This document shows, one piece after another, positions 1 through 26,496 of a DNA stretch of 64,000 nt; position 1 is the first letter of the stretch, and each line of letters starts with the position of its first letter. The position numbers were made by a program, and so were the translations under genes. A model generated the notes under the pieces. The model was not told the DNA's origin. It saw nothing but the letters and a program-made list of their open reading frames with translations, and ran no database searches. Source of the DNA: Proteiniphilum propionicum (lineage in GTDB: Bacteria; Bacteroidota; Bacteroidia; Bacteroidales; Dysgonomonadaceae); assembly GCF_022267555.1 (NCBI RefSeq), contig NZ_CP073586.1:1727501-1791500 (forward strand). The letters are read 5' to 3'.

Positions 1-395
1 GTACCCAGAATCAATGCTTTTCTGTGAACATCTGCCTTCAATATAGGGTTAAGAGAGTTTTTAAATCCGGTATAGTCGGTATTGTAACCTGTAAGCTTGT
101 AGTAATACATGTCTCCGGGCTTTCTCTCAATCCTGATCACGTTGACGGCACCAATTCTTTCTGCTTCGGGGGAGATATCGTGCAAAAATGGAATCACTTT
201 TTCTTTGTAGGGAATTGTAACATTCAGACCCTTCAGATGCTGATTAAAAAGTATAACTCGACGAATATCCAAGATATCCTCCAGTTCGAAATTCAGGTAT
301 TCAGCATCAATATTCTCCCGCATGAACTTCTCAGTGAAGAATTTTGCCGAGAAAGAGTGTTTAAGCGGAAAACCAATCAGTCCGTAAGTATCCAT
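1..395 (-). CDS. aroE: Shikimate dehydrogenase, N-terminal part (cut by window edge)
   Basis: Reduces 3-dehydroshikimate to shikimate with NADPH in the cytoplasmic chorismate pathway. The reading frame starts at the ATG at 395 and reads MDTYGLIGFPLKHSFS, the shikimate-binding N-terminus of AroE (G-x-P-x-x-H-S). It continues through NVTIPYKE and a GAVNVI stretch, both typical of the family. The sequence ends at the window edge just as the Rossmann glycine loop begins (ALILGT), so the NADP-binding half lies outside. It starts 9 bases after the ubiE stop, so it is probably the last visible gene of the purF-like/phoH/purC/ubiE/aroE transcript. The family call is secure from the motifs. Only about 131 residues are visible. 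Confidence 0.9.
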   Translation of the reverse strand, partial: MDTYGLIGFPLKHSFSAKFFTEKFMRENIDAEYLNFELEDILDIRRVILFNQHLKGLNVTIPYKEKVIPFLHDISPEAERIGAVNVIRIERKPGDMYYYKLTGYNTDYTGFKNSLNPILKADVHRKALILG

Positions 396-404
396 TATTT
401 CAAA

Positions 405-1151
405 TTATAAAACCGGTTTCTCTGCAATGTATAATGTTGTAATACCAAGCGTATATCGTCTTAAGCGTATGTTTGTAAACCCGTTTTTCTTCAGGATAAG
501 CATCATTTCTCTTCCCTGTGGAAAAGCTGCAATAGACTCGGGAAGATATTCATATGCCCTCTGTTCGGTTGCGAGGATACCTGACAAAACAGGCATTACA
601 TATTTGGTATAAGCAGAATAGAGCTGTTTCATCGGTGTTTTGCCGGGTGTTGTAAGTTCAATAAATAGAAATACCCCTCCCGGCTTCAAAACACGAAGCA
701 CCTCTTTGAAACTTTTGTCTATATCTTCGAAGTTACGTACCCCAAATGCTATGGTGGAAGCATCGAAGCTGTTATCAGGAAAGTTCATCTCTGCGCAATC
801 CTGTTTTTCGAAAGTTATGATATCGTCAAGTCCTCCTGCTTTCACTTTGCGGCGGCCAATCGACATCATCCCTTCTGAGATATCAACAGCCATGATCTTT
901 TCAGGTTTCAGGATCTTCTGTGCCAGAATAGCGAAATCACCGGTGCCAGTAGCAATGTCCAGTATCTGATGGTGAGGGTATTTTTTCAACACCTTAAGGG
1001 CATCACTGCGCCAGTAATTATCAATACCCAGTGATAGTGCACCATTAAGCTTATCATATCCCGGAGCAATTTCATTGAACATGTGAATAATCTGCTCTTT
1101 CTTTGGCTTATCGGGATGGTAAGGATTTACCCTTTCTACTTTATAACTCAT
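405..1151 (-). CDS. ubiE: Demethylmenaquinone methyltransferase
   Basis: This is a class I SAM-dependent methyltransferase of 248 aa that carries out the last step of menaquinone synthesis, methylating demethylmenaquinone at the membrane face. The SAM-binding motif I (LDIATGTGDFA) is at residues 64-74. The UbiE signatures are present: MFNEIAPGYDKLN near residue 24, then FGVRNFEDI and a C-terminal FTNIRLRRYTLGI stretch. The length is that of the family. It lies 34 bases after purC and 9 bases before aroE, which argues for cotranscription. Bacteroidales respire with menaquinone and not ubiquinone, so the menaquinone role (also called menG) is the likely one. Nothing is odd in the sequence. Confidence 0.93.
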   Translation of the reverse strand: MSYKVERVNPYHPDKPKKEQIIHMFNEIAPGYDKLNGALSLGIDNYWRSDALKVLKKYPHHQILDIATGTGDFAILAQKILKPEKIMAVDISEGMMSIGRRKVKAGGLDDIITFEKQDCAEMNFPDNSFDASTIAFGVRNFEDIDKSFKEVLRVLKPGGVFLFIELTTPGKTPMKQLYSAYTKYVMPVLSGILATEQRAYEYLPESIAAFPQGREMMLILKKNGFTNIRLRRYTLGITTLYIAEKPVL

Positions 1152-15708: not shown

Positions 15709-17475
15709 ATGATTGAATCTGAAAGTTTTAGTGAACAGGAAGAGCAAAGTGCAGTTTCGGGCGGACCGGAACATAGCAAAGAAACGGCCAATTCCGGTAA
15801 AGAGTTTCCAATGATAGCCAAAACTATGGCGGAGCTGGAGGATGTGTTGGCCGGGGAGCTGATAGCATTGGGCGCAAACAACGTAGAAATTGGTACCCGG
15901 ATGGTGTCGTTTACCGGCGACAATGCATTGATGTACAAGTCAAATGTGTGTTGCCGTACAGCATTGCGTATATTAAAACCAATTTATACTTTCAAGGCTG
16001 ATAATGCCGATGAGGTGTATGAGGCACTTAAGCTACTCAACTGGGATGAATATCTGGCATTGGATAATTCATTTTTGATCGATTCAGTGGTCTTTTCGCA
16101 TATTTTTACTCATTCGAAGTTTGTGGCGTACCGCGTGAAGGATGCTATCTCAGACTGGTTTACAGAAAAGTATGGGAAACGTCCTTCAGTGAGTGTTACA
16201 AATCCCGACCTGGTGTTTAATATTCATATTGCACATAACAAATGTACTTTGTCGCTTGACAGTTCAGGCGAATCTCTTCATAAGCGCGGCTACAGGATCG
16301 CCCAAACTGAAGCGCCACTGAGCGAGGTGCTGGCGGCTGGGATGATCCTGAAAACTGGATGGCACGGTGAAAGTACGTTTATTGATCCCATGTGCGGGTC
16401 GGGGACATTGCTGATTGAAGCGGCAATGATTGCCCTGGGAATCCCACCCGGTATTCACCGGCAGCATTTTGCCTTTGAAAAATGGAAAGATTTTGATGAA
16501 AAACTTTTCAGTGAGATATATAATGATGACTCCGGAGCGCGTGAGTTAAGGTATCGCATAATAGGGTGTGATATCTCCCCCAAAGCTATTGCCATAGCAG
16601 AAAAAAACATTAAAAATGCGGGATTGAAAAAATATATCGACTTGGAGGTAAAACCTTTTCAACAATTTACTGAAGCACCGGAACCTGCAGGAATTCTGAT
16701 GACTAACCCTCCTTATGGTGAGCGCATTAAAGTGGAGGATATGGATGAACTTTATTCGATGATAGGTGAACGCCTTAAACACGTCTTTACAGGATACAAC
16801 GCTTACATATTGAGCTATAGAAAAGAGGCTTTTGATGCAATAGGATTAAGACATTCCAAACGGTTTTTTCTTTATAACGGAGCCCTGGAATGTGAGATGC
16901 GTGAGTACGAAATCTTTTCCGGAAAGCGTGATGAGCGTCCCGCAAGAGAATTTTCGGGGAAGAAGACGTCAAGGAAAGATGAGTACCATTACGAAAGAAA
17001 TTCAAGGGAGGGTTACCGCCGCTCGAAAAGAACCGAACGGGGCGAGGATGACAGGGCGCAAAGTGGCTTCGGCCTTAAGGGTAAGGATAACAGGACACAA
17101 AGCAGCTCAGGTTTTCACAGAGAGGGTGAAAGGACGCAAAGCGGTTTTGGCCGTAAGGGTGAGGATGAAAGGAAACAAAGCGGTTTCGGCCGTAAGGGCG
17201 AGGATGGCAGGACTAAAAGACGAGAAGGAAAGCCTTTTAAACCCGTGAACCGTTCATTCGGTAAAGAACGTGACTCACGTTTACGAGAACACTCCTCCGA
17301 TGTAGACCGCAAATCCTACGGACGTTCTTTTGATAAAGAGCATGATGAATTTCCCCGCAAAAAAAAGGATTATAAATCCGGAAAAGTTTTCAAGACTGAT
17401 AAACGCTCTTCAGATATGCCGCATCCAGGGAAGAAAGGCGAGTATTCAAAAAGAAAAGATAAGCCCGGGGCATGA
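15709..17475 (+). CDS. THUMP-domain class I rRNA methyltransferase with basic repeat tail
   Basis: A 588-aa SAM-dependent RNA methyltransferase of the RlmL/Trm11 group, likely acting on guanine in 23S rRNA. Residues about 35-190 form the ferredoxin-like/THUMP part (AKTMAELEDVLAGEL). The Rossmann core follows with FIDPMCGSGTLLIEAAMIA near 225 and the catalytic NPPY motif (MTNPPYGER) near 332. From about 400 the tail is Arg/Lys/Gly/Ser-rich and disordered, with four 13-residue repeats. The first 34 residues are acidic and not typical; homologues I recall start near MIAKTM (15811). A promoter box at 15678-15685 makes 15709 usable. It faces the operon at 17625. Confidence 0.88.
   Translation: MIESESFSEQEEQSAVSGGPEHSKETANSGKEFPMIAKTMAELEDVLAGELIALGANNVEIGTRMVSFTGDNALMYKSNVCCRTALRILKPIYTFKADNADEVYEALKLLNWDEYLALDNSFLIDSVVFSHIFTHSKFVAYRVKDAISDWFTEKYGKRPSVSVTNPDLVFNIHIAHNKCTLSLDSSGESLHKRGYRIAQTEAPLSEVLAAGMILKTGWHGESTFIDPMCGSGTLLIEAAMIALGIPPGIHRQHFAFEKWKDFDEKLFSEIYNDDSGARELRYRIIGCDISPKAIAIAEKNIKNAGLKKYIDLEVKPFQQFTEAPEPAGILMTNPPYGERIKVEDMDELYSMIGERLKHVFTGYNAYILSYRKEAFDAIGLRHSKRFFLYNGALECEMREYEIFSGKRDERPAREFSGKKTSRKDEYHYERNSREGYRRSKRTERGEDDRAQSGFGLKGKDNRTQSSSGFHREGERTQSGFGRKGEDERKQSGFGRKGEDGRTKRREGKPFKPVNRSFGKERDSRLREHSSDVDRKSYGRSFDKEHDEFPRKKKDYKSGKVFKTDKRSSDMPHPGKKGEYSKRKDKPGA
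17053..17208 (+). repeat. Four tandem 39-bp repeats coding a basic tail
   Basis: Four in-frame 39-bp units encode RAQSGFGLKGKDN, RTQSSSGFHREGE, RTQSGFGRKGEDE and RKQSGFGRKGEDG. The third and fourth units are nearly identical in DNA, which points to recent duplication. The number of units probably varies between strains. Confidence 0.8.
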
Positions 17476-17624: not shown

Positions 17625-18239
17625 CTACTTTAAAAGCTTCAGCCCGTCTTTAGCCGATTGGTCGGCAGGAGAGATAATCAGCACGGTATTGAACAACCGT
17701 TTTGCATCTGACTTCTTTCCAAGGAAATATTTTGTCCAGGCAGTCATCAGCGTGGAGTAATAGTCGAACGGGTACATCGCCTGTACCAGCTCAAAATATA
17801 TTTCTGCTTGCTGAAAATCTTTCCGGTAATAATAGATATTGCCTAATGCATAATTCACTTTCGAGTTCATTTTATCTAAAGTCAGAATCTGCTTGTAAAC
17901 CTTTTCCAGCTCATCACCCTTTTTTTGAGCTTCCAGCGGGTAGCATAGGCCCAGTAGCGCTTCTACCGCTTTTGGTGCCAGTTGAATGGCAGAACGGTAA
18001 TGTTTCTTGCTTGTTTCATAATCTTTTGACAGGTAATAGAGCCATCCCAGCCGAAGCGATTTGTGATAATCGTAACCGCTGACACTCTGCAGCACCCCGA
18101 TAGCTTTCTGATAGTCTCCAGATGCTTCGTAACTGTAACTGTCAGAAAATACCTGTGATGGGTTAATCTGTGCCGTCGCCATCGGTACAATCGCTAAGAA
18201 CAGCAGTATGATCAGGCTTTTAATGTTTAAAAATTCCAT
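17625..18239 (-). CDS. Secreted TPR protein, last gene of the PqqD/ATP-grasp operon
   Basis: A 204-aa periplasmic protein. A signal peptide is visible (MEFLNIKSLIILLFLAI ending ATA-Q). The rest is four to five tetratricopeptide repeats (YSYEASGDYQKAIGVL, GWLYYLSKDYETSKKHY, ALGNIYYYRKDFQQAEIYF, WTKYFLGKKSDAKRLF) that would form a peptide-binding or scaffold solenoid. Its start overlaps the upstream barrel gene by 13 bases, so the two are translationally coupled and probably work together at the outer membrane. No enzymatic motif is present. The role in the operon is unknown; a scaffold for the barrel and the M23 domain is inference. Confidence 0.82.
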   Translation of the reverse strand: MEFLNIKSLIILLFLAIVPMATAQINPSQVFSDSYSYEASGDYQKAIGVLQSVSGYDYHKSLRLGWLYYLSKDYETSKKHYRSAIQLAPKAVEALLGLCYPLEAQKKGDELEKVYKQILTLDKMNSKVNYALGNIYYYRKDFQQAEIYFELVQAMYPFDYYSTLMTAWTKYFLGKKSDAKRLFNTVLIISPADQSAKDGLKLLK

Positions 18240-19570
18240 GAGAAAGAGATATTTATAAGGTGGTTGTTGTATTTATACGGGAGATAACGGGTGATTGAGG
18301 AGGCATAGCCTTCCCTTTGCTGCCATTGATATCCGGCGGTAGCCACCGCTTTTGTTATGTACCAGGAGAGGGTCAGCCCGGCAAGAGCTTTTACTGCATC
18401 GTAGGTGTCGTACACCATAAATGAATGATTGCTGATATAATTAAGGTGGTTGCCTATGCCGGCCGATCCTTCCAACCAAAGCTGTCTCGCCAGTTTGCAT
18501 CCCAGATGCTGGGATACGATAAACTGGTTATTCACCCAGGAGTCACTGTTGAAGATAGCTGCCATTGAAGTGGTTCCGTAAAAGTTTAGGTTCCCCAACG
18601 GGTAATAGGTTAATGACCCTTTTGCCTGATACTGTTCCCAACCGCCAAAGTTGGACCAGGCAACGGCGATCTCCGGCATCAGGTAGGTCCATCTTTTATT
18701 GATAAATGCCAGGGCTGAAAATGCAGATGCCCTGTCCGTTTCAGAACTTGAGAGAGAAAAGAGGTTGTGACGTTTTATGAAGCCACGGCCGACTCCTGTT
18801 CCGTTGTTTTCAGCATAAGCGGAGGATTTGGTTGGCTTATCTTTCCCGTCGATACTGTAGTATCCTCCGGCTAATCCACACGAAAGGCTCTCCCCCGTAA
18901 AAAATTCGAATACTAAGTTTAGCTGGTGCTGAGACAGGATGTTACTATATAGCAAACCCGAGGCATTGTGGCGTTCAAAGGCGTTGTTGTAACGCTGGTA
19001 TCCGAGTAGTAGCTTCGACCTGCCAGATAGGTTGATACCTATGCCCAGAGATGCAAATGCCATATTGCGGTACAGGTTAAGCGAATCTAGCCCCGTGAGT
19101 TTACTCCCCAGTTCGGGAGTGTTCCCGCTGTAGGAATAGCCACCCGAAATCGATATATAGTCAACCACTTGCGGAGAGTATCCGATGGTGGCCTGGACAT
19201 GAGGCGGCAGCGACCGTGCAACAATATTGGCATTTGTTTTTTGTCCGCTCAGAAGATATGCATAATAAAGACTCTCCAGCAGAACAGGGTCTCCCGGATT
19301 TTGCTCCAGTGTCTTACGGTAATATCGTGCTGCATTTGCATAATTCTTCAGTTCAAAGTATGCAATAGCAGTACGGTAGTCCAGATAATAGAACCCGATC
19401 TGCCGGGCACGAGCCTTTTTGGAGGTCTCAATCAGCTTCTGATAATCCTTTTGCAGGTATTGCTGATATGTTATACTGTCGATACTGGCTGTTTCGGGTG
19501 GTTGTTGTGCAATGAGTGGTAGCATCGACAATATAAATGTCGAGATGAATGTTATACCCAGTCGATACAT
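18227..19570 (-). CDS. TPR/outer-membrane beta-barrel protein
   Basis: A 447-aa protein with a signal peptide (ISTFILSMLPLIAQQ). An N-terminal TPR-like region (about 25-130: YQQYLQKDYQKLIET, AIAYFELKNYANAARYYRKTL) is followed by about 310 residues of alternating amphipathic strands rich in Tyr, Gly and Ser. It ends in INISFSWNF, a terminal Phe typical of outer-membrane barrels. It could form a pore or an anchor for the preceding periplasmic domain. It overlaps the upstream transporter/M23 gene by 19 bases and the downstream TPR gene by 13. I do not recognise a named family; some Bacteroidetes TPR-barrel proteins have this general plan. Confidence 0.78.
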   Translation of the reverse strand: MYRLGITFISTFILSMLPLIAQQPPETASIDSITYQQYLQKDYQKLIETSKKARARQIGFYYLDYRTAIAYFELKNYANAARYYRKTLEQNPGDPVLLESLYYAYLLSGQKTNANIVARSLPPHVQATIGYSPQVVDYISISGGYSYSGNTPELGSKLTGLDSLNLYRNMAFASLGIGINLSGRSKLLLGYQRYNNAFERHNASGLLYSNILSQHQLNLVFEFFTGESLSCGLAGGYYSIDGKDKPTKSSAYAENNGTGVGRGFIKRHNLFSLSSSETDRASAFSALAFINKRWTYLMPEIAVAWSNFGGWEQYQAKGSLTYYPLGNLNFYGTTSMAAIFNSDSWVNNQFIVSQHLGCKLARQLWLEGSAGIGNHLNYISNHSFMVYDTYDAVKALAGLTLSWYITKAVATAGYQWQQREGYASSITRYLPYKYNNHLINISFSWNF

Positions 19571-21723
19571 AATGTGTGATTTTTTGTGTTGATTTTGATT
19601 TGGTGATGATTCACTGTGATGACAGATATCCTTCTGTGAAGCTTAATGTTGAATGATTTTGTTTCCAGCAAACTTCTGTAAACCATCTTTTCCGGATAAT
19701 GGATATTATCCGTTTCAATCAGTACCGACCGGTAACAAATTTGGGTGAAAATAACGAAAGGTGCCAGAAGATCCTGAAACCAGCGGGTTCCTTTAGGGTG
19801 CTCCTTAGTTAAAGGGATATTGTCCGAAACTGGTATCTCCCTTTCGTTAGACAGCAATAGTTTAAAGCAGCTTCGGTAGAAAAGATAAAGCGGTGACGAT
19901 TTTTTCCCTTCAAAATCGGTGAAGTATAACATTGTGCCGTCATTTTCCATGTAGGCGGTTGCACGCGACTTTCGGCAGTGTATATAGGTTTTGTTGTATT
20001 CATCGGTAGCAATATACCATGAATATGGCTCATCATCATAAGTAACACTCATCGCTCTTCCCGGTTTGTTATCAAATGCCTTATGTGCCATCAGAGATGG
20101 TTGAATGTTGTAAATGGTACTCTTTTCTTCGGGTACCTTGCCAATATGCAGTAGGGGTTTCTCTTTTCCTTTCTCGAAAAAATATCCAATTGGATAGGCG
20201 TGGGTCTGTGCACCAATCTCGGGGGAGAGCTGCACCTGGAAGTGGAGATGCGGCTCGGATGAACGCCCCGAATTTCCGCAGGCGGCCAGGACAGTACCTC
20301 TGGTTACGTAATCACCGATGCGTACCTTGAAACTGTCTTTCTTTAGATGGCTTATCTGTGTATATAATCCGTTCAGGTGGTTGATGACAATACTGTTCCC
20401 CCAGTTTTTACGGGTGTTTACATCGCCTATCTCATTATCTTCGGTGATGTTGCCGATCATGTATACATAGCCATCGGCAGGGGCCATCACCGGTTTGTTG
20501 AAACAGTAAAAATCTTCTTTTTCCGCACAACGGCCTAAACAGGTAGATCCCTGCTCGTCTGTAATCACAAAATCGAGCGCTTTTCCCCATGCTCCCAGAT
20601 GGGTGATGCCGCCATCATATCCCTGGCTAACCTGCCATTCCCCCAAAAAAGGAAGCTGCAGCTTGAACAATGACTCCTGTGAAAAGCGTTCCATGTAATT
20701 CACATATTTGTAAACAGTTTTCTCAGGATTGAAATATTGGATATAGGGAAATATGAAGAAGCGGCTCAGGCTTCGTTGTTTTAGAATGAACAATACAAGT
20801 ATTGATAACAGGCTGAATGGCAGAGTATAAGATGATAGACCTAACCCGGCAATCAGATTTTCTATGCTTGCATAAAAAAGAAAGAGGGCCGGGGTGAGCA
20901 CAATCACCAGCAGATAGCTGAAGCTGTTCGGTATAATAAAAAAACTACCAATAGCCATTCCCCAGAAGATATAGTTCACACCTGCAAGATTCCGGGTTAG
21001 TTCCTGTATATCCACGCCTAGCAGTTTGCTGGTAAAAAATGCGAAGAAAAATCCCAGGAAAGCAACCGTCGATTTGATGCGTGAATGAAAGATCAATGCA
21101 ATCGTTATGATGATGCCGACCAACAGGCTGTCGGTGAAGAAAACCGATGCCAGCGTCTTGAAATAGTAGTAGAATATTGATGGAAGGGGAACCCTATCCA
21201 TCGCATGCGCTACCGGATACCATGGTACCTCCATTTGATTGGCCAGCACAACCGTGAAGCGGTCGAACAGGCCGATTGTCTCTATTTTGGTAAAGGTTTT
21301 TACCGAAAGGTCAACGACGAAAAGTGTGAAAACAAAAGGAAGCGTAAGTATTGGAAGGCTGTGTTTTGAGAAAAGCGATTCTAGCCAGATGGTGAACATG
21401 AAGGCCATGATTACCGAGAAAACAAAGAGTATCAGAAATGAATTGTTCGTATAAAACTTGTACATTAGCCCTATTCCTACGAAAATAGCATTGAAACCAT
21501 AAATTCCAGAACGGATTTTCTGCTTCGAGAAACCTAGTATATGAGCAATAATGTTGGTCAACAGCACGGCGGCTAACCCGCCTGCTCCCAGCCTGCAATC
21601 GAGCATGCTAATCAGTAGGAGTATCAGCGAGAACCAGCGCTCCTTCGAAAAGAAAATCATACCGTAACTATTCAATGTCCCGTCAAGGTACATGAGTGTG
21701 TATGTTCTAAGCCTGTTACCCAT
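19552..21723 (-). CDS. Urea-transporter-like protein fused to an M23 peptidase
   Basis: A 723-aa fusion. Residues 1 to about 315 form ten or so membrane helices in two halves, with urea-transporter signatures YGFNAIFVGIGL (76-86) and GVNYIFWGMAIGSFF (248-262). A soluble M23 (LytM-type) metallopeptidase covers about 355-530. Its zinc ligands look intact: His375 and Asp384 (THLGAWGKALDF) and His494 in PHLHF (491-495). The likely catalytic His are 459 (ISHL) and 492. About 200 further residues lack a recognised domain. If the topology is conventional the peptidase faces the periplasm. It is the central gene of a coupled operon. The transported solute need not be urea. M23 enzymes usually cut peptidoglycan cross-links or peptides. 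Confidence 0.85.
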   Translation of the reverse strand: MGNRLRTYTLMYLDGTLNSYGMIFFSKERWFSLILLLISMLDCRLGAGGLAAVLLTNIIAHILGFSKQKIRSGIYGFNAIFVGIGLMYKFYTNNSFLILFVFSVIMAFMFTIWLESLFSKHSLPILTLPFVFTLFVVDLSVKTFTKIETIGLFDRFTVVLANQMEVPWYPVAHAMDRVPLPSIFYYYFKTLASVFFTDSLLVGIIITIALIFHSRIKSTVAFLGFFFAFFTSKLLGVDIQELTRNLAGVNYIFWGMAIGSFFIIPNSFSYLLVIVLTPALFLFYASIENLIAGLGLSSYTLPFSLLSILVLFILKQRSLSRFFIFPYIQYFNPEKTVYKYVNYMERFSQESLFKLQLPFLGEWQVSQGYDGGITHLGAWGKALDFVITDEQGSTCLGRCAEKEDFYCFNKPVMAPADGYVYMIGNITEDNEIGDVNTRKNWGNSIVINHLNGLYTQISHLKKDSFKVRIGDYVTRGTVLAACGNSGRSSEPHLHFQVQLSPEIGAQTHAYPIGYFFEKGKEKPLLHIGKVPEEKSTIYNIQPSLMAHKAFDNKPGRAMSVTYDDEPYSWYIATDEYNKTYIHCRKSRATAYMENDGTMLYFTDFEGKKSSPLYLFYRSCFKLLLSNEREIPVSDNIPLTKEHPKGTRWFQDLLAPFVIFTQICYRSVLIETDNIHYPEKMVYRSLLETKSFNIKLHRRISVITVNHHQIKINTKNHTLCIDWV

Positions 21724-21766
21724 TCAATTTCCTGTTTAACTTATTAGCATTGACTATACGCCTTTA

Positions 21767-23122
21767 TTACAAGGTGAAACTTTTGAGGTGTTCAGGCACC
21801 TTCTCCTGTTGCACAATGGTATCAACTGATTCGCTTTTGCGAATAAGATGCACTTTCCCGCTGGTATCTATTATGACAACGTTGGGACGAAGCGTGATGA
21901 ACTGCATCCATTGTGTCATATTGTAAGCTCCAACCTCATGTATCACTACACGGTCGCCCTTTTTTAAGAGTGGCAGGCTCACGCTTTCACGCAGACAGTC
22001 TATGTTCATACAAAGAGGCCCATAAAGTACCATTTCTTCGGCATGTTGTGTGAAGTCCTGTGCCGGTGATACTTTATGGTTATACCAAAAGGAGGTGAAC
22101 AGGATGTTTACGCCTATATCAAGCACGGTAGCCCTGCGTCCGTCAGCAAGCCGTTTTGTAGCCAGCACCGATCCCAGCAGGTAGCCCGCTTCATCAATTA
22201 AGGCACGACCATTTTCCAGAATCAGCAGGGGCATTTCATCCGGCTTAAAGCCTGCTTGCAGGATTGTGCCGGTGATTGCTTCAGCATAGTCGTCGAACGT
22301 GGGAATCACATCCACTCCCTGCAGATAGGAGCCTTTCAGGGTGTTAGACGAACAGAAGCCGCCCCCCATATCTATATATTTAATCTTTATCCCGGCAGTT
22401 CCGGCAGTTTGTCGCGCCAGATCGCACATTTTTCTGGCAGCCACAGCATAGGCGTTTACCGTAAGCATGTAGGTGCCGATGTGGGTGTGTAAACCCTCCA
22501 ACTGCAGGTTGGGCTGTGTGGCAATCTTCATGATCGCATTCCATGCCTGTCCCGATTCGTAATTAAAGCCAAAGCGATCCCACTGGGGATAGACACCGGT
22601 GTCCATGTTCACACGGATAGCCACCCTTGCCTTGTTGGCTGAACCTTCCAGCAGTTCAATCAACGTGTATAGCTCGTCGAAATGATCAATATGGATAAGA
22701 GAGTGGTTCTCAACCGCTCTTTTCAGGTCCTCTTCCGACTTATCGGGCCCGTTGAAGAGAATCAGGTTTCCGGGAACACCGTTGCGTATAGCTTTACGGT
22801 ACTCAAAACCTGATACCACCTCCGCCCAGCTGCCCTCCTGATGGAAAATGTTGCAGACGGCATCAAGGTAGTTCGTTTTATAGCTCCAGGCAAACTGCAC
22901 TTTTGGATAGCGCATTCTGAATGCTTTCAGCGCTTTCTGATAGGTCTGACGGATTGTTTTTTCACTGATTACGAAAAGAGGTGAGCCGTATTGTTCCATC
23001 AGGCTGGCGACAGCTACGCCATCGATCTGTTTTAACGGGGTATATCCGGTACGGCTGCCAAATTTATTTAACAGGCCTGTATTCAGCTTCTGAATGATTG
23101 GCCTTTCATAAGTCGGTTTCAT
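21767..23122 (-). CDS. PLP-dependent decarboxylase, diaminopimelate/ornithine decarboxylase fold
   Basis: A 451-aa fold-type III (alanine-racemase fold) decarboxylase of the LysA group. The PLP lysine is Lys82 (FAWSYKTNYLDAV). The barrel carries HTHIGTY and the phosphate-binding GGGF, and the C-terminal domain has LILENGRALIDEAG and GPLCMNIDCL, matching the Cys-containing active-site loop supplied by the partner subunit. All expected catalytic features are therefore present. It starts 2 bases after the ATP-grasp stop, so it is coupled to it. A biosynthetic LysA would not usually sit in such an operon. The substrate may be a diamino acid, a peptide-linked amino acid or the ATP-grasp product. 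Substrate assignment is open. Confidence 0.85.
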   Translation of the reverse strand: MKPTYERPIIQKLNTGLLNKFGSRTGYTPLKQIDGVAVASLMEQYGSPLFVISEKTIRQTYQKALKAFRMRYPKVQFAWSYKTNYLDAVCNIFHQEGSWAEVVSGFEYRKAIRNGVPGNLILFNGPDKSEEDLKRAVENHSLIHIDHFDELYTLIELLEGSANKARVAIRVNMDTGVYPQWDRFGFNYESGQAWNAIMKIATQPNLQLEGLHTHIGTYMLTVNAYAVAARKMCDLARQTAGTAGIKIKYIDMGGGFCSSNTLKGSYLQGVDVIPTFDDYAEAITGTILQAGFKPDEMPLLILENGRALIDEAGYLLGSVLATKRLADGRRATVLDIGVNILFTSFWYNHKVSPAQDFTQHAEEMVLYGPLCMNIDCLRESVSLPLLKKGDRVVIHEVGAYNMTQWMQFITLRPNVVIIDTSGKVHLIRKSESVDTIVQQEKVPEHLKSFTL

Positions 23123-23124
23123 AA

Positions 23125-24174
23125 TTACATCTCTCCTGTTGTTGAAATTTTTTCAAATTCCGATATATCCACGATCATATCGTAGGAATAGCGGATAAAC
23201 ATTTTGCCGCTCTTATATTCCGTGAACGGCTTAACTTTTTTGCCCAGAGCCATTTTTAAAAGTGCTTCGGCATGATTCTGCCCGCATCCGTTGGCCAGGT
23301 ACACCCAGGCCGGAAAGCGGGGATTCATCTCTAGCAGGTAATACTCATTTTTTTTTGTCTTTATGAATTCCAGCTCACAACCACCTCTCCAGCAGCTTTT
23401 CTCTATCACGTGGCGCGAAATTGCCAACAGCTCTTCATCTTCTAACGATATACCCGACCAGGCTTTACCCTTGTCGGTTATGTAGAGTTTACGCATCGGT
23501 ATGGCACCGATACAGTTTCCCTGACCGTCTCCTATAGCGGTAACGTTCACTTCCGTGCCTGGAATAAACTCCTGCACAATCACCGGATAGCCCCATTTGG
23601 CAACAATCTTGTAGAAATACGAGCTTGCCTGCTCGTAGGATGAGGCAATATAAGCATCGTAATAACGCCCTTTGATCACCATAGGGTAATCTAGTTCGTC
23701 TTCCAATTTTTTGATCTCCGATACCCGGCTGATCATATGGTTTTGAGGTACTCTGACACCATATTTGTCACCAAATCTGGAGAGCTCTGGTTTTTGCCGT
23801 TCTTCGAACTGTTCGTGTGAAGGCAGGAAGGTTGCAATGCCCAACTCCGATTTCAGCTCCTTTTGAAGCTTGATGAAATTGTGTAACTCCGCATCGAAAT
23901 TGGGAATTAGCACATCGATCGGTTCCCTGCCGGCAATGTATCGCAACCGTTCTTTTAGCACAGCCGATCCCGCTGTGGGTAACGGAAGCTGATATACACT
24001 GTCCACGAGATGGTGCATATATATTCCTGGCTCCAGTGTTTCATACGAAAGGCCAATAATGCGCACTTCAAACTCTTTGCTTTCTTTCAGTGCTCTTATT
24101 ACCGGAATTCCAGGTCCCGGACTGTCGATATTGTTCAGTCCTGTTACGGCAACGGTGATTTTTGTTTTACTCAT
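23125..24174 (-). CDS. ATP-grasp ligase
   Basis: A 349-aa ATP-grasp enzyme. The first 110 residues are a pre-ATP-grasp Rossmann-like domain (VAVTGLNNIDSPGPGIPVIRAL as VAVTGLNN and GIPVIRAL). The ATP-grasp core has the nucleotide lysine near 168 (YPMVIKG), QEFIPGTEVNV at 201-211, and the metal-binding LEMNPRFPAW at 281-290 with Glu-x-Asn-Pro-Arg. It resembles carbamoyl-phosphate-synthase-like ligases that join a carboxylate to an amine. It overlaps pqqD-like by 8 bases and is 2 bases from the decarboxylase gene, so these three are coexpressed. It probably forms an amide on a peptide or amino acid. The substrate is unknown. Confidence 0.88.
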   Translation of the reverse strand: MSKTKITVAVTGLNNIDSPGPGIPVIRALKESKEFEVRIIGLSYETLEPGIYMHHLVDSVYQLPLPTAGSAVLKERLRYIAGREPIDVLIPNFDAELHNFIKLQKELKSELGIATFLPSHEQFEERQKPELSRFGDKYGVRVPQNHMISRVSEIKKLEDELDYPMVIKGRYYDAYIASSYEQASSYFYKIVAKWGYPVIVQEFIPGTEVNVTAIGDGQGNCIGAIPMRKLYITDKGKAWSGISLEDEELLAISRHVIEKSCWRGGCELEFIKTKKNEYYLLEMNPRFPAWVYLANGCGQNHAEALLKMALGKKVKPFTEYKSGKMFIRYSYDMIVDISEFEKISTTGEM

Positions 24175-24412
24175 GTTCGGTTAGTTGATAGCTCTTCAGC
24201 ATGGTCAGAAAATCATTCAGGTCCTTTTCTGCTGTATAGGTGTCCAATTCATACTCCTCCCGAAGGGCCTCTAGTATGTTTTTGTCACTCTCCCCCTCTT
24301 TCAGCTTTAGAAGGACAAAAATACCGGTCTGATTTACACTGAAGCTGTCGCCGGTGAGTGGATTAAAAATAAACCCGTTCTCACTGATAGCAATGTTTTT
24401 TCTAATTTTCAT
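24167..24412 (-). CDS. PqqD-like peptide chaperone (RRE domain)
   Basis: An 81-aa PqqD-family protein starting at the ATG at 24412 (MKIRKNIAISENG); an upstream ATG at 24451 would add 13 poorly supported residues. The winged-helix pattern is clear: FIFNPLTGDSFSVN, then TGIFVLLKLKEG and a helix AEKDLNDFLTMLKSYQL. PqqD domains are RiPP recognition elements that bind a precursor peptide or a partner. It is the first gene of the six-gene operon and overlaps the ATP-grasp gene by 8 bases. No radical-SAM gene or obvious precursor peptide is next to it, so if it binds a peptide the substrate is encoded elsewhere or is one of the small frames not called here. Confidence 0.82.
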   Translation of the reverse strand: MKIRKNIAISENGFIFNPLTGDSFSVNQTGIFVLLKLKEGESDKNILEALREEYELDTYTAEKDLNDFLTMLKSYQLTEHE

Positions 24413-24482
24413 ATCAGGTTGGCATTTGGTTTTGGATATGTGATTGTTCAATTCTGACAGTCATCATATCAAAAGTCAGTAA

Positions 24483-24515
24483 CAAAAATAATCGTTTATT
24501 TGTGTTGTTCACAAA
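24483..24515 (-). promoter_or_regulatory. Promoter of the PqqD/ATP-grasp operon
   Basis: On the minus strand TTTG (24515-24512) and TATTTTTG (24490-24483) are 21 bases apart, a consensus Bacteroidetes promoter. Transcription would start near 24478, 66 bases before the ATG at 24412. It overlaps the T-run of the terminator of the upstream operon, so the six-gene operon is a separate transcription unit. Confidence 0.6.
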
Positions 24516-24547
24516 AAAACCTGCTGAAATTTTGTTTTCAGCAGGTT
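24513..24547 (-). terminator. Intrinsic terminator of the ECF sigma operon
   Basis: AACCTGCTGAAA at 24518-24529 pairs perfectly with TTTCAGCAGGTT at 24536-24547 around a 6-base loop. On the minus strand the stem is followed by a T-run. It lies 30 bases after the end of the EF-hand-like gene. Confidence 0.85.
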
Positions 24548-24576: not shown

Positions 24577-25032
24577 CTATTTTGTCTCTCTCCAGTCACA
24601 GATGCCGTTTTTGTTGGCATCTACGAAGTTTACACCGCGACCCCTCCCATTGCGAATCCCGGCTCGGTATCCGGCGCCACGTCCGCGACGCGGTGTCCCT
24701 TTCTCGAAGTTGTCACAAACGCCGTTGCCATCGGCATCTATGAAATATCGTCCCCGCCCTTGTCCGTTACCAAATCCCATGCCTCTGCCACGTCCGCTGC
24801 CGTTGCGTAGTGCCTGTCTGCCATTGGCATTGGGATTCCCGGGGGTGCCTTTTTCGTAATTATCGCAAATGCCATTGTTGTTGCTATCTACGAATGCGGG
24901 GCCTCTCTGTATTGTTTGTCCGGCCTGGATCGTTTTATCCTGAACTTTTTCTGTTTGATCCTGATTTTGGGCAGCTGCCCATCCAATGGTGACAACCATC
25001 ATTAATGTGATTGTAAAAAGTTTTGTTTTCAT
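24577..25032 (-). CDS. Secreted EF-hand-like repeat protein
   Basis: A 151-aa exported protein with a signal peptide (MKTKLFTITLMMVVTIG ending AAA-Q). Three copies of an EF-hand-loop-like motif are visible: FVDSNNNGICDNYEKGTP, FIDADGNGVCDNFEKGTP and FVDANKNGICDWRE. Each has Asp/Asn ladders of Ca2+ loops plus a conserved Cys. They are separated by Gly/Arg/Asn-rich linkers (RGRGMGFGNGQGRGR). It could bind Ca2+ or another divalent cation in the periplasm, with possible disulfides. It is the last gene of the sigma operon and sits 35 bases after the Spy-like gene. Its function is not established. Similar short proteins accompany ECF operons in this phylum as far as I recall. Confidence 0.8.
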   Translation of the reverse strand: MKTKLFTITLMMVVTIGWAAAQNQDQTEKVQDKTIQAGQTIQRGPAFVDSNNNGICDNYEKGTPGNPNANGRQALRNGSGRGRGMGFGNGQGRGRYFIDADGNGVCDNFEKGTPRRGRGAGYRAGIRNGRGRGVNFVDANKNGICDWRETK

Positions 25033-25067
25033 TTTTCTTTATTTATTTAATGATTTTGATTTATTGT

Positions 25068-25628
25068 TTACGGTTTATTCCACCCTCTCCCGTATCTATG
25101 TCTGTAGCCCCCTCCCGTGCTGTCCGGACGGTAATATCCGAATCCGCGCCGGGCGTTGCTTGTCTCATCCCTGTAGAGAGGAAGGAATGTTTCTTGCAGC
25201 CTGTAGCATTGAGCTGAATCACATACCGATTTAATTGAGAGGTAAAAATCGTTAGTGATTTTCTTCAGCTCAGCGTGATGCCTACCTATATGGTCTGATA
25301 TGCTGTTCAACCTGATCGTGTCGGGCTGTTCCCTGTTCAACTCTATGAACATCTCTGTCTTCAGCGAATCCATCTCGTAGATCAGTAAGTTTGCCTGTGG
25401 CTGGAATTGCCGATTTGCTTTCCGGAAGGCGTTCATCTGCTCATCATCGAACCTAAGTGTCTGACGGAAATACCTTCCGGTGAGCGGAGCCCGGCTTTCA
25501 TCTATAACAACTGCAGCCTCATTGTCTTTTACCTGCCGGTTATGATAAAATATGGTTCCTATGGTGGTCAGGTTCAGCACCACTAACAGCGCAATTACCC
25601 ATATCTGTATGCTGTTCTTCTTAGTCAT
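25068..25628 (-). CDS. Spy/CpxP-like periplasmic sensor, membrane-anchored
   Basis: A 186-aa protein with one N-terminal membrane anchor (IWVIALLVVLNLTTIG) and a helical periplasmic part. FRQTLRFDDEQMNAFRK and the heptad-like MDSLKTEMFIELNREQPD match the Spy/CpxP/ZraP-type (periplasmic heavy-metal sensor) family, which forms helical hairpins that bind metal or misfolded protein. The C-terminus is Gly/Tyr/His-rich (GGGYRHRYGRGW), a possible metal ligand. It overlaps the upstream putative anti-sigma gene by 8 bases. It probably senses an envelope signal for the ECF sigma factor. The C-terminal Cys pair (KSVCDSAQCYR) is notable. Confidence 0.8.
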   Translation of the reverse strand: MTKKNSIQIWVIALLVVLNLTTIGTIFYHNRQVKDNEAAVVIDESRAPLTGRYFRQTLRFDDEQMNAFRKANRQFQPQANLLIYEMDSLKTEMFIELNREQPDTIRLNSISDHIGRHHAELKKITNDFYLSIKSVCDSAQCYRLQETFLPLYRDETSNARRGFGYYRPDSTGGGYRHRYGRGWNKP

Positions 25629-25914
25629 AATCTTCCAAATTATAATATTCCAGGTTTTCTATCTGACTATCGTTGATATTCATACCCAGCTTCGGATAAT
25701 AATCACCTTTATAACTATTTCCGAGAGTGATTCCCAACACTGTAACAGCAGCAAAACTGGCAGCCAGGGCAATGGCTTTCCACACAGATGGCCGGTAGTT
25801 TGCCTGCAGCTGCTTTCTTTCTATCTCCGCCAATACGCGTGTGCTCAGGTAGGGACTGGGGACCATCTGCTTTTCGCGTTCAATCAGGTCATTGATATAT
25901 TTTTCTGTTCCCAT
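25621..25914 (-). CDS. Small membrane protein, likely anti-sigma factor
   Basis: A 97-aa protein with a cytoplasmic N-terminal half (EKYINDLIEREKQMVPSP), one membrane helix (about 45-67, AIALAASFAAVTVLGITLG) and a short periplasmic acidic tail (QIENLEYYNLEDYD). It lies 36 bases after the ECF sigma gene and 8 bases inside the Spy-like gene, which is the place of an anti-sigma factor. It lacks a zinc-binding HxxxCxxC motif, so any sigma binding would be non-ZAS. The role is inferred from position and topology only. Confidence 0.6.
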   Translation of the reverse strand: MGTEKYINDLIEREKQMVPSPYLSTRVLAEIERKQLQANYRPSVWKAIALAASFAAVTVLGITLGNSYKGDYYPKLGMNINDSQIENLEYYNLEDYD

Positions 25915-25950
25915 TCTGTTGGTTTGTTTATATGTTTGACAAGTCTCCCA

Positions 25951-26496
25951 TTATTTTCCTACGGTTTTGTCCAGTTTCTTTTGCAGATTACCCTTTGCTC
26001 GTTGCAGTAGTTGTTCTACAGCCCCTTCTGATTTATTCATGATACGGGCGACCTCTTTCTGGGGCAGTTCTTCATATCTGCTCAACACAAAAGCTGTTCG
26101 TTGAGAGGTGGGAAGGCGGTCGATTGCCGCTTTTATCAGTCTGTCTCTCTCCGCTGCTTCCAATTGTTCAAGTGGCGTTTTCTCGTTGCTATAATAGTTG
26201 AAGATGTTTTCGAGCGACAGCAATAACCTGTTTTTACTGTTCCGTTTAATAAAATTAATGCTGCAGTTCGCTGTTATCCGGTAGAGCCATGTGGAAAACT
26301 CAGCCTTTCCTTTGAAGGAGTGCAACGATTCAAAAACCCTTATAAAAACCTCTTGGGTGAGGTCATCCGCATCAGCTTTGGAATGCACGAATCCCATGGC
26401 TGTGCGAAATACCACTCCCTGATATTTTTCTATTAATTCCTTAAAGGCTTGAGTGTTGCCGGAGTTAATTTTTTCTATGAGTTCTGAGTCCGTCAA
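25951..26496 (-). CDS. ECF sigma factor (RpoE family)
   Basis: A 181-aa ECF sigma factor. Region 2 is complete (FKELIEKYQGVVFRTAMGFV, shown in part as YQGVVFRTA, then DADDLTQEVFIRVFES and FSTWLYRITANCSINFI). Region 4 has LPTSQRTAFVLSRYEELPQKEVA and the helix-turn-helix recognition segment SEGAVEQLLQRAKGNL. It heads a four-gene operon with a putative anti-sigma, a Spy-like sensor and an EF-hand-like protein. That pattern suggests an envelope or metal stress regulon, which is inference. A small palindrome, TCCTACGGTAGGA, lies at 26543-26555 upstream. Confidence 0.92.
   Translation of the reverse strand: MTDSELIEKINSGNTQAFKELIEKYQGVVFRTAMGFVHSKADADDLTQEVFIRVFESLHSFKGKAEFSTWLYRITANCSINFIKRNSKNRLLLSLENIFNYYSNEKTPLEQLEAAERDRLIKAAIDRLPTSQRTAFVLSRYEELPQKEVARIMNKSEGAVEQLLQRAKGNLQKKLDKTVGK

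Follow-up and report, generated by a model that had tools for sequence, protein, structure and literature searches.

A conserved PqqD, ATP-grasp and decarboxylase operon of Bacteroidota that may make and release a small amine-bearing molecule

A six-gene operon was analyzed in a 64,000-nucleotide stretch of the Proteiniphilum propionicum genome (contig NZ_CP073586.1, positions 1,727,501 to 1,791,500; hereafter the window). Its genes encode a PqqD-like protein, an ATP-grasp ligase, a pyridoxal 5'-phosphate (PLP)-dependent decarboxylase, a urea transporter (UT) channel fused to an M23 peptidase (UT-M23), a presumed outer-membrane barrel and a tetratricopeptide repeat (TPR) protein. The six genes are a real conserved unit, and their order is kept far beyond chance. 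We propose, with a probability of roughly one in three, that they form one envelope-spanning unit for the cytoplasmic synthesis and the release of a small amine-bearing molecule. A more specific version of this proposal is doubtful: a peptide-scaffolded line guided by a RiPP recognition element (RRE; RiPP, ribosomally synthesized and post-translationally modified peptide), with release by M23 and exit via a repurposed UT channel fused in one protein. The genome that holds the window (G000) comprises 3.9 Mb in a single contig, and its closest named relatives by operon gene, in a scan of genome contigs, were metagenome-assembled genomes labelled Bacteroidales, Petrimonas and Proteiniphilum.

All six open reading frames (ORFs) lie on the minus strand between positions 17625 and 24412 (Table 1). 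They are joined, in order, by an 8-base overlap, a 2-base gap, a 43-base gap, a 19-base overlap and a 13-base overlap, and the first-pass annotation, which had described six coupled genes with these junctions, was borne out to the base. The scan of genome contigs, which reaches close relatives only and says nothing on presence outside Bacteroidota, gave 21 loci. The PqqD gene adjoins the ATP-grasp gene in all 21, the decarboxylase gene comes next in 20, and UT-M23 is present in 15, contig ends accounting for four of the six loci that lack it. Of 395 evenly sampled Bacteroidota genomes, 34 have the ATP-grasp gene, a figure that underrates the order of the host because only six genomes of that order, including G000, were sampled (one positive). 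Loci were fetched for all positives but G000, and in 33 out of 33 the genes for PqqD, ATP-grasp, decarboxylase and UT-M23 occur in this order on one strand; the exceptions within this set are a PqqD gene located ~2 kb from the ATP-grasp gene (L083) and a frameshifted UT-M23 (L057). The separate UT and M23 genes of L057 were considered as a natural split and rejected, since they look like the product of a frameshift; there is a break in L001, too. The TPR gene accompanies the operon in 30 of the 33 loci. In one lineage it precedes a short barrel-like gene (~280 aa), and the short "barrels" of this second lineage were named from sequence alone.

The ATP-grasp gene was also found in 121 of 295 Bacteroidales genomes, a count made with another alignment and cut-off than that for the phylum. 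The gene order was inspected in 20 of these 121 genomes, 19 of them chosen for contig room and one (G659) for its long frame. All six genes stand together and in order in 16 of the 20 loci, some with inserted genes. The remaining four comprise a locus cut by a contig end (L120), two with the first three genes, and one with PqqD and ATP-grasp. In both genomes whose locus holds just the first three genes, UT-M23 is encoded elsewhere. A search for the same order in other Bacteroidales had been suggested earlier, and there the homologues proved to be grouped rather than scattered, UT-M23 being displaced in just 2 of 20 loci; the claim of one coupled unit is supported by all three sets of loci. The smallest locus (L136, genome G658) consists of PqqD and ATP-grasp, behind which a protein with a type IX secretion system (T9SS) sorting tail is encoded; it may represent a minimal core or may have decayed. 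In all likelihood L128 and L017 are one contig (length 137,700, 100% match), so one partial locus was seen twice. An apparent ATP-grasp/decarboxylase fusion in G659 (an 837-aa frame) was traced to a run of N and rejected as an artefact.

The PLP enzyme matched Pfam Orn_Arg_deC_N (9.8e-32), and its best PDB chain was 7kh2, an N-citrylornithine decarboxylase (4.7e-88; best LysA enzyme 3e-68). It shares with FigC the motifs C-M-(N/Q)-x-D and GAYN...FI. Pocket positions were mapped by hand from the 7kh2 alignment and counted in 32 family members, the roles of the FigC/FslC residues being those given in the available text of PMC7857480. The PLP and catalytic residues were kept in 32/32, as was the Met that follows the catalytic Cys in FigC, while Thr occupies the position of FigC T327 and Tyr that of Y331 in 31/32 each. 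The citryl contacts of FigC are replaced throughout, with Ile at H357 and Gln at R387 (32/32 each). The Arg of the specificity helix that marks diaminopimelate decarboxylases (DAPDC) is replaced by Thr in 31 members and by Ser in one, and where DAPDC has an acidic residue behind the catalytic Cys, all 32 have Met. The scores with the NCBIfam models for N-citrylornithine decarboxylase (209.6 bits) and LysA (TIGR01048, 220.4 bits) stayed below the respective cut-offs of 500 and 297.9. The first-pass annotation had asked whether this enzyme might be the only LysA; G000 holds three PF02784 proteins, one of them with canonical LysA residues: this LysA (L022) has the Arg and CESSD. A role as LysA in lysine synthesis was rejected on the pocket residues and on this separate canonical enzyme. 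Judged by its residues, the operon decarboxylase is FigC/FslC-like and not LysA. The lost citryl contacts combined with the kept FigC pocket residues make a conjugated amino acid with a neutral far end the probable substrate, rather than diaminopimelate, ornithine or citryl-ornithine. Enzymes of this branch, among them FigC, SbnH, AcsE, MccE and BtrK, act on conjugates; the known substrates comprise citryl amino acids, a peptidyl-nucleotide (MccE) and a carrier-bound glutamate (BtrK) (available text of PMC7857480).

The ATP-grasp protein matched the Pfam families ATPgrasp_Ter (5.3e-9), CPSase_L_D2 and ATP-grasp_3. Its AlphaFold model (predicted local distance difference test, pLDDT, 93) was nearest in fold to the uncharacterized structure 2pn1 (Z 30.4), behind which biotin carboxylases, glycinamide ribonucleotide synthetase, the L-amino-acid ligase 3vot (24.6) and PylC (24.4) are near-tied. 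Residues K168, Q201, E267, E269, E282, N284 and R286, which we take to belong to the ATP site, were kept in 44 of 44 sequences. The protein passed no curated NCBIfam cut-off (best score 89.2 bits vs 390, PRK12767-like), and in fold and ATP residues it agrees with the wider PRK12767-like group. A comparison with graspetide systems showed a ligase like that of carbamoyl phosphate synthase and PRK12767, with no precursor seen beside its gene.

The fusion protein matched UT (2.9e-47) and Peptidase_M23 (1.3e-16) in Pfam, and its AlphaFold model had a pLDDT of 90.5. The UT part has the full UT fold (Z 35.2 and a root-mean-square deviation of 2.6 over 312 residues to dvUT, 3k3g), and the M23 part resembles the LytM domain of DipM (Z 14.8); the C-terminal part behind it received no assignment. 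According to what we assume to be the zinc and catalytic motif, the M23 residues H375, D384, H459, H492 and H494 are intact in 42/42 sequences, and the catalytic residues of all three enzymes of the operon appear to be kept. UT was found in 44 of the 395 genomes: the 34 with the operon have it fused to M23 (frameshifted in G005), and the ten others have UT alone, in frames of 280-332 aa. The fusion goes only with the operon (34/34), and urease occurs in 1/34 operon genomes compared to 6/10 of those with a stand-alone UT. The stand-alone UTs keep all four urea-contact residues (7/7; seven of nine loci were compared, two without a frame being left out). Among 46 fused sequences the first urea-contact Gln is kept in 36, its Glu/Gln partner in the second half in none, and the contact Thr in 10 and 11; the protein of the window itself has Met, Ser, Thr and Thr at the four positions, which were located by alignment and to which we presumptively assign a role in urea contact. 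Since half of these residues are lost in the fused transporter, the predicted pore is that of a changed UT and no longer a symmetric urea filter. Urea uptake for urease was rejected on the urease distribution and the lost contacts.

Both ends of a UT protein lie on the same side of the membrane. Positive charges (K+R) are more frequent on the side of the termini in 44/46 fused sequences and in 7/7 stand-alone UTs, with the 13 residues that follow the UT part included in the count. The most hydrophobic 19-residue window of the linker reaches at most 1.24, compared to at least 2.44 in the UT part, so there is no further hydrophobic span. Based on this charge bias, the linker, the complete UT fold of the model and the assumed topology of UT-B, the M23 domain is predicted to lie in the cytoplasm, beside the three enzymes. 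An M23 peptidoglycan hydrolase would be expected outside the cytoplasm. The predicted location changes the interpretation given in the first-pass annotation. Members of the UT family pass very small solutes, and the channel is too narrow for a peptide, which makes a modified peptide, proposed as cargo in the first-pass annotation, unlikely.

The first protein of the operon matched Pfam PqqD (1.4e-11; 44.9 bits vs a cut-off of 23.4), and the best PDB match of its profile was the lasso-peptide B1 protein TbiB1 (4.2e-12). Its gene stands beside or upstream of the ATP-grasp gene in every locus of the three sets (21/21, 33/33 and 20/20), and in G000 it is the sole PqqD above the cut-off. A LysW-like carrier role via a conserved C-terminal Glu was rejected, since the C-terminus varies. 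PqqA, the radical-SAM protein PqqE and PqqB/C were absent from the six proteins and from the Pfam-scanned neighbours, the rest of the genome not having been searched. RRE groups that include PqqD bind W/Y/LxxP/L/I sequences (available text of PMC12710340).

In the scheme that we propose, the PqqD/RRE protein would bind a short peptide, or the tail of a protein, whose gene lies elsewhere, and the ATP-grasp enzyme would form an amide bond between a carboxylate and an amino acid, probably at the side-chain amine of the latter. The PLP enzyme would then strip the alpha-carboxylate from the conjugated amino acid, giving an amine. M23, at the cytoplasmic face of the channel, would cut the small product from its peptide, the UT-like channel would pass it to the periplasm, from where the TPR and barrel proteins would take it through the outer membrane. 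The peptide would be scaffold, not product. Of the accounts that assign a task to each of the parts, peptide-scaffolded synthesis would be the simplest. Its ligase and decarboxylase steps draw on family knowledge and residues, and the scaffold, the release and the export we infer. The earlier suggestion of joint manufacture and export of a modified peptide or amine is narrowed by the unlikely peptide cargo, and a peptide product as well as passage across both membranes would remain conjectural.

Several observations weigh against this scheme. It fixes no identity for the amino acid, the acyl partner or the bond cut by M23. In G658, UT-M23 was not found in a genome search and a decarboxylase search made without a positive control gave no match, so that PqqD and ATP-grasp may have a role alone; PqqD-family proteins may also act purely as protein partners. 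The decarboxylase has Trp at FigC T330 in 32/32 members, and its pocket is not simply that of FigC. In agreement with the first-pass annotation, no precursor ORF was seen beside the operon: none was noted by eye upstream of PqqD in an alignment of the window with 12 close relatives (in trans was not searched), nor in the gap between the ATP-grasp and PLP genes in an alignment with ten, both checks being alignments read by eye with no ORF scan, and L008 having a run of N there. Finally, the cytoplasmic side of the UT termini is carried over from what we take to be the topology of mammalian UT-B, and the borders of the segments used for the charge bias were set by hand. The bias is weaker if the C-terminal linker residues are omitted: of 42 sequences, 33 have more K+R on the side of the termini, five have equal numbers on both sides and four have fewer. 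In addition, at least one sequence has a hydrophobic window of 1.72 past aa 410.

The strongest rival dispenses with the peptide. By a logic like that of rhizoferrin, the ATP-grasp enzyme would join a small acid to ornithine or lysine and the FigC-like enzyme would convert this to an N-acyl diamine, handled by the UT and barrel proteins as a metal chelator, signal or osmolyte. This is possible, if doubtful. FigC/FslC is the closest solved relative of the decarboxylase, a UT channel would suit a small amide or ureido compound, and in rhizoferrin clusters such a decarboxylase occurs together with a ligase and a transporter (available text of PMC7857480). However, the citryl contacts are gone in every family member counted, the ligase is an ATP-grasp enzyme and not a synthetase of the NRPS-independent siderophore (NIS) type, no TonB receptor or major facilitator superfamily (MFS) exporter is found among the six proteins, and PqqD and the intact, probably cytoplasmic M23 would be left without a role. 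An ordinary RiPP pathway, in which ligase and decarboxylase modify a peptide encoded in trans and M23 removes its leader, is unlikely. A UT-fold channel is too narrow for such a product, no ATP-binding cassette (ABC) or MFS exporter is among the six proteins, and no precursor ORF was seen beside the operon. Its attraction lies in the closeness of the PqqD profile to a lasso-peptide B1 protein, in the peptide-binding RRE groups described above and in MccE, which decarboxylates an amino-acid group on a peptidyl-nucleotide (available text of PMC7857480).

It is quite unlikely that the unit supplies an amine which modifies or anchors surface or T9SS-secreted proteins, an idea that stems from two families of T9SS-tailed proteins. 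The first, a secreted family with a 160-aa core that has no Pfam family, occurs in 13/395 genomes, all operon-positive, and in 12 of them within 5 kb of the ATP-grasp gene (Fisher test, 13/34 vs 0/361, 1.2e-15). The second was found in 12/40 operon-positive and 0/40 negative Bacteroidales genomes (9.3e-5), some copies being far from the operon; both tests ignore shared ancestry. Against this, the 13 genomes are not independent, since they belong to just two families (f18 and f36). Among the 12 are the genome of the query (G526) and G658, which had been known before the count, as well as weak matches in three genomes (G431, G458 and G483); the 40 positives and 40 negatives were hand-picked, the negatives being sampled Bacteroidales genomes absent from the ATP-grasp match list. 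Moreover, the complete operon is present in G000, where both families are missing and no T9SS sorting tail exceeds the Pfam cut-off; for this reason the T9SS-tailed partner, which is lineage-specific, is optional. Uptake or sensing of a small solute, which the enzymes would then modify, is improbable, too. UT channels are passive and can work in either direction, and AraC-type or extracytoplasmic function (ECF) sigma factor genes occur near the operon in several loci, but these regulators vary between loci and an ATP-grasp enzyme with a decarboxylase looks like a building rather than a breaking pair. Housekeeping metabolism of lysine, polyamines or urea, to which the LysA-like annotation and the UT domain might point, is hardly credible in view of the separate canonical LysA, the replaced DAPDC residues and the scarcity of urease in operon genomes.

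Table 1. Features of the operon and its upstream boundary (window positions; aa ranges for parts of the fusion protein).
Feature	Position	Strand	Remarks
Terminator-like hairpin of the upstream gene; upstream boundary of the operon	24518..24547	-	Hairpin in sequence
Candidate Bacteroidota-type promoter TTTG-N21-TATTTTTG	24483..24515	-	70 bases before the PqqD start codon
PqqD/RRE-fold protein	24167..24412	-	81 aa, ATG start; Pfam PqqD
ATP-grasp ligase, carbamoyl-phosphate-synthase-like (PRK12767-like)	23125..24174	-	349 aa; Pfam, AlphaFold, fold comparison
PLP-dependent alanine-racemase-fold decarboxylase, FigC/FslC-like	21767..23122	-	451 aa; PDB match and residue analysis
UT-M23 fusion	19552..21723	-	723 aa; Pfam, AlphaFold, fold comparison
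UT channel part of UT-M23	aa ~1-320		
M23/LytM peptidase part of UT-M23	aa ~350-515		
C-terminal beta-rich part of UT-M23	aa ~515-723		
Secreted protein, weak N-terminal TPR-like repeat, presumed outer-membrane barrel	18227..19570	-	447 aa; signal peptide, beta-rich look
TPR protein with signal peptide, presumed periplasmic	17625..18239	-	204 aa; Pfam TPR

The operon had been thought to begin at a promoter right after a terminator. The terminator-like hairpin is present, and the promoter stays a candidate: the sequence TTTG-N21-TATTTTTG, which we take to be the Bacteroidota consensus, is well placed there, but it is one of two in the window vs 2.16 expected, a count that is not significant. 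A scan of the region for sigma70-type promoters found 12 vs 13.6 expected, which is not above chance. The domain labels given earlier were upheld by Pfam for PqqD, ATP-grasp, the decarboxylase, UT/M23 and TPR, the "barrel" label reflecting the look of the sequence and the signal peptide. Signal peptides are directly visible at the start of both the barrel and the TPR protein; the former gave weak TPR matches only, and the latter has TPR repeats by Pfam. A known defence system was considered and rejected, the one weak PADLOC match falling in the TPR part of the barrel protein.

Upstream of the operon, positions 24577-26496 (minus strand) hold an apparently separate unit with an ECF sigma factor, a likely anti-sigma factor of 97 aa and two further genes, one for a 186-aa protein with a weak Metal_resist match and the other for a secreted 151-aa protein with FVDxNxNGICDxxE repeats. 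Of these two, the 151-aa protein is encoded upstream in 11/13 and the 186-aa protein in 9/13 close-relative loci. On the other side, positions 15709-17475 (plus strand) encode a protein labelled methyltransferase-like from its sequence, with a long, basic, repeat-rich C-terminal tail. In other genomes, AraC-type regulators with an N-terminal part resembling heavy-metal-associated (HMA) domains lie upstream of PqqD (L015, L021, L124, L126, L130, L131 and L136; L021 and L124 were domain-scanned, the others labelled by sequence). The first T9SS-tailed family is found upstream of PqqD in L067-L074, L077, L078, L080 and L081, while the second adjoins the operon at L016:8950-9747, L132:1284-2081, L136:3799-4578 and L138:1422-2213. 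The two families were compared with hhalign, which detected no homology between them (probability 0.5 per cent). A histidine kinase and a class I/II aminotransferase are inserted between the decarboxylase and UT-M23 genes at L016:12537-15485 (by Pfam) and L132:4873-7838 (by sequence). L122 and L134 have an extra gene of ~310 aa at the same place, whose product presumably resembles initiation factor 2B.

The presence of the ATP-grasp gene in 121 of the 295 sampled Bacteroidales suggests that the operon product is probably a common molecule of the order, and no name for it was found. If the proposal is true, many Bacteroidota have a so far unseen small amine product, which would be open to direct search by comparative metabolomics. 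A search of the open-access literature by title and start of abstract, with subscription journals and preprints outside its range, turned up no paper that describes this gene set, in agreement with the earlier statement that no named pathway has it. A survey of Bacteroidales RiPPs (PMC10352776) and the RRE paper (PMC12710340) do not mention a urea transporter or M23 in the main text, as covered by a term search.

Among known systems, the rhizoferrin locus fsl/fig likewise combines a ligase, a FigC-like decarboxylase and a transporter. It differs in its NIS synthetase, in place of which the operon has an ATP-grasp enzyme, and in the citrate contacts that are lost here, and the operon adds PqqD, UT-M23, TPR and barrel proteins. 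In butirosin synthesis, BtrJ is an ATP-grasp ligase and, together with the PLP decarboxylase BtrK, which is among the matches of the operon enzyme, works on a tethered amino acid; the operon has PqqD instead of an acyl-carrier protein. The lasso-peptide B1 proteins (TbiB1) share the PqqD fold, but a lasso cyclase, B2 peptidase and precursor are absent from the six genes. Peptide-scaffold pathways, in which a protease releases the product, build on a peptide and then clip, as proposed here, although with different enzymes, and no scaffold gene was found in our case. In these pathways an amino acid is attached to the scaffold peptide (available text of PMC10979984). UT-M23 shares the fold of the UT family (dvUT, UT-B), and departs from it in the missing Glu/Gln of the second site, the fused M23 and the lack of a link to urease. 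With an intact M23 joined to a UT channel, on the side predicted to be cytoplasmic, both folds would be put to a new use.

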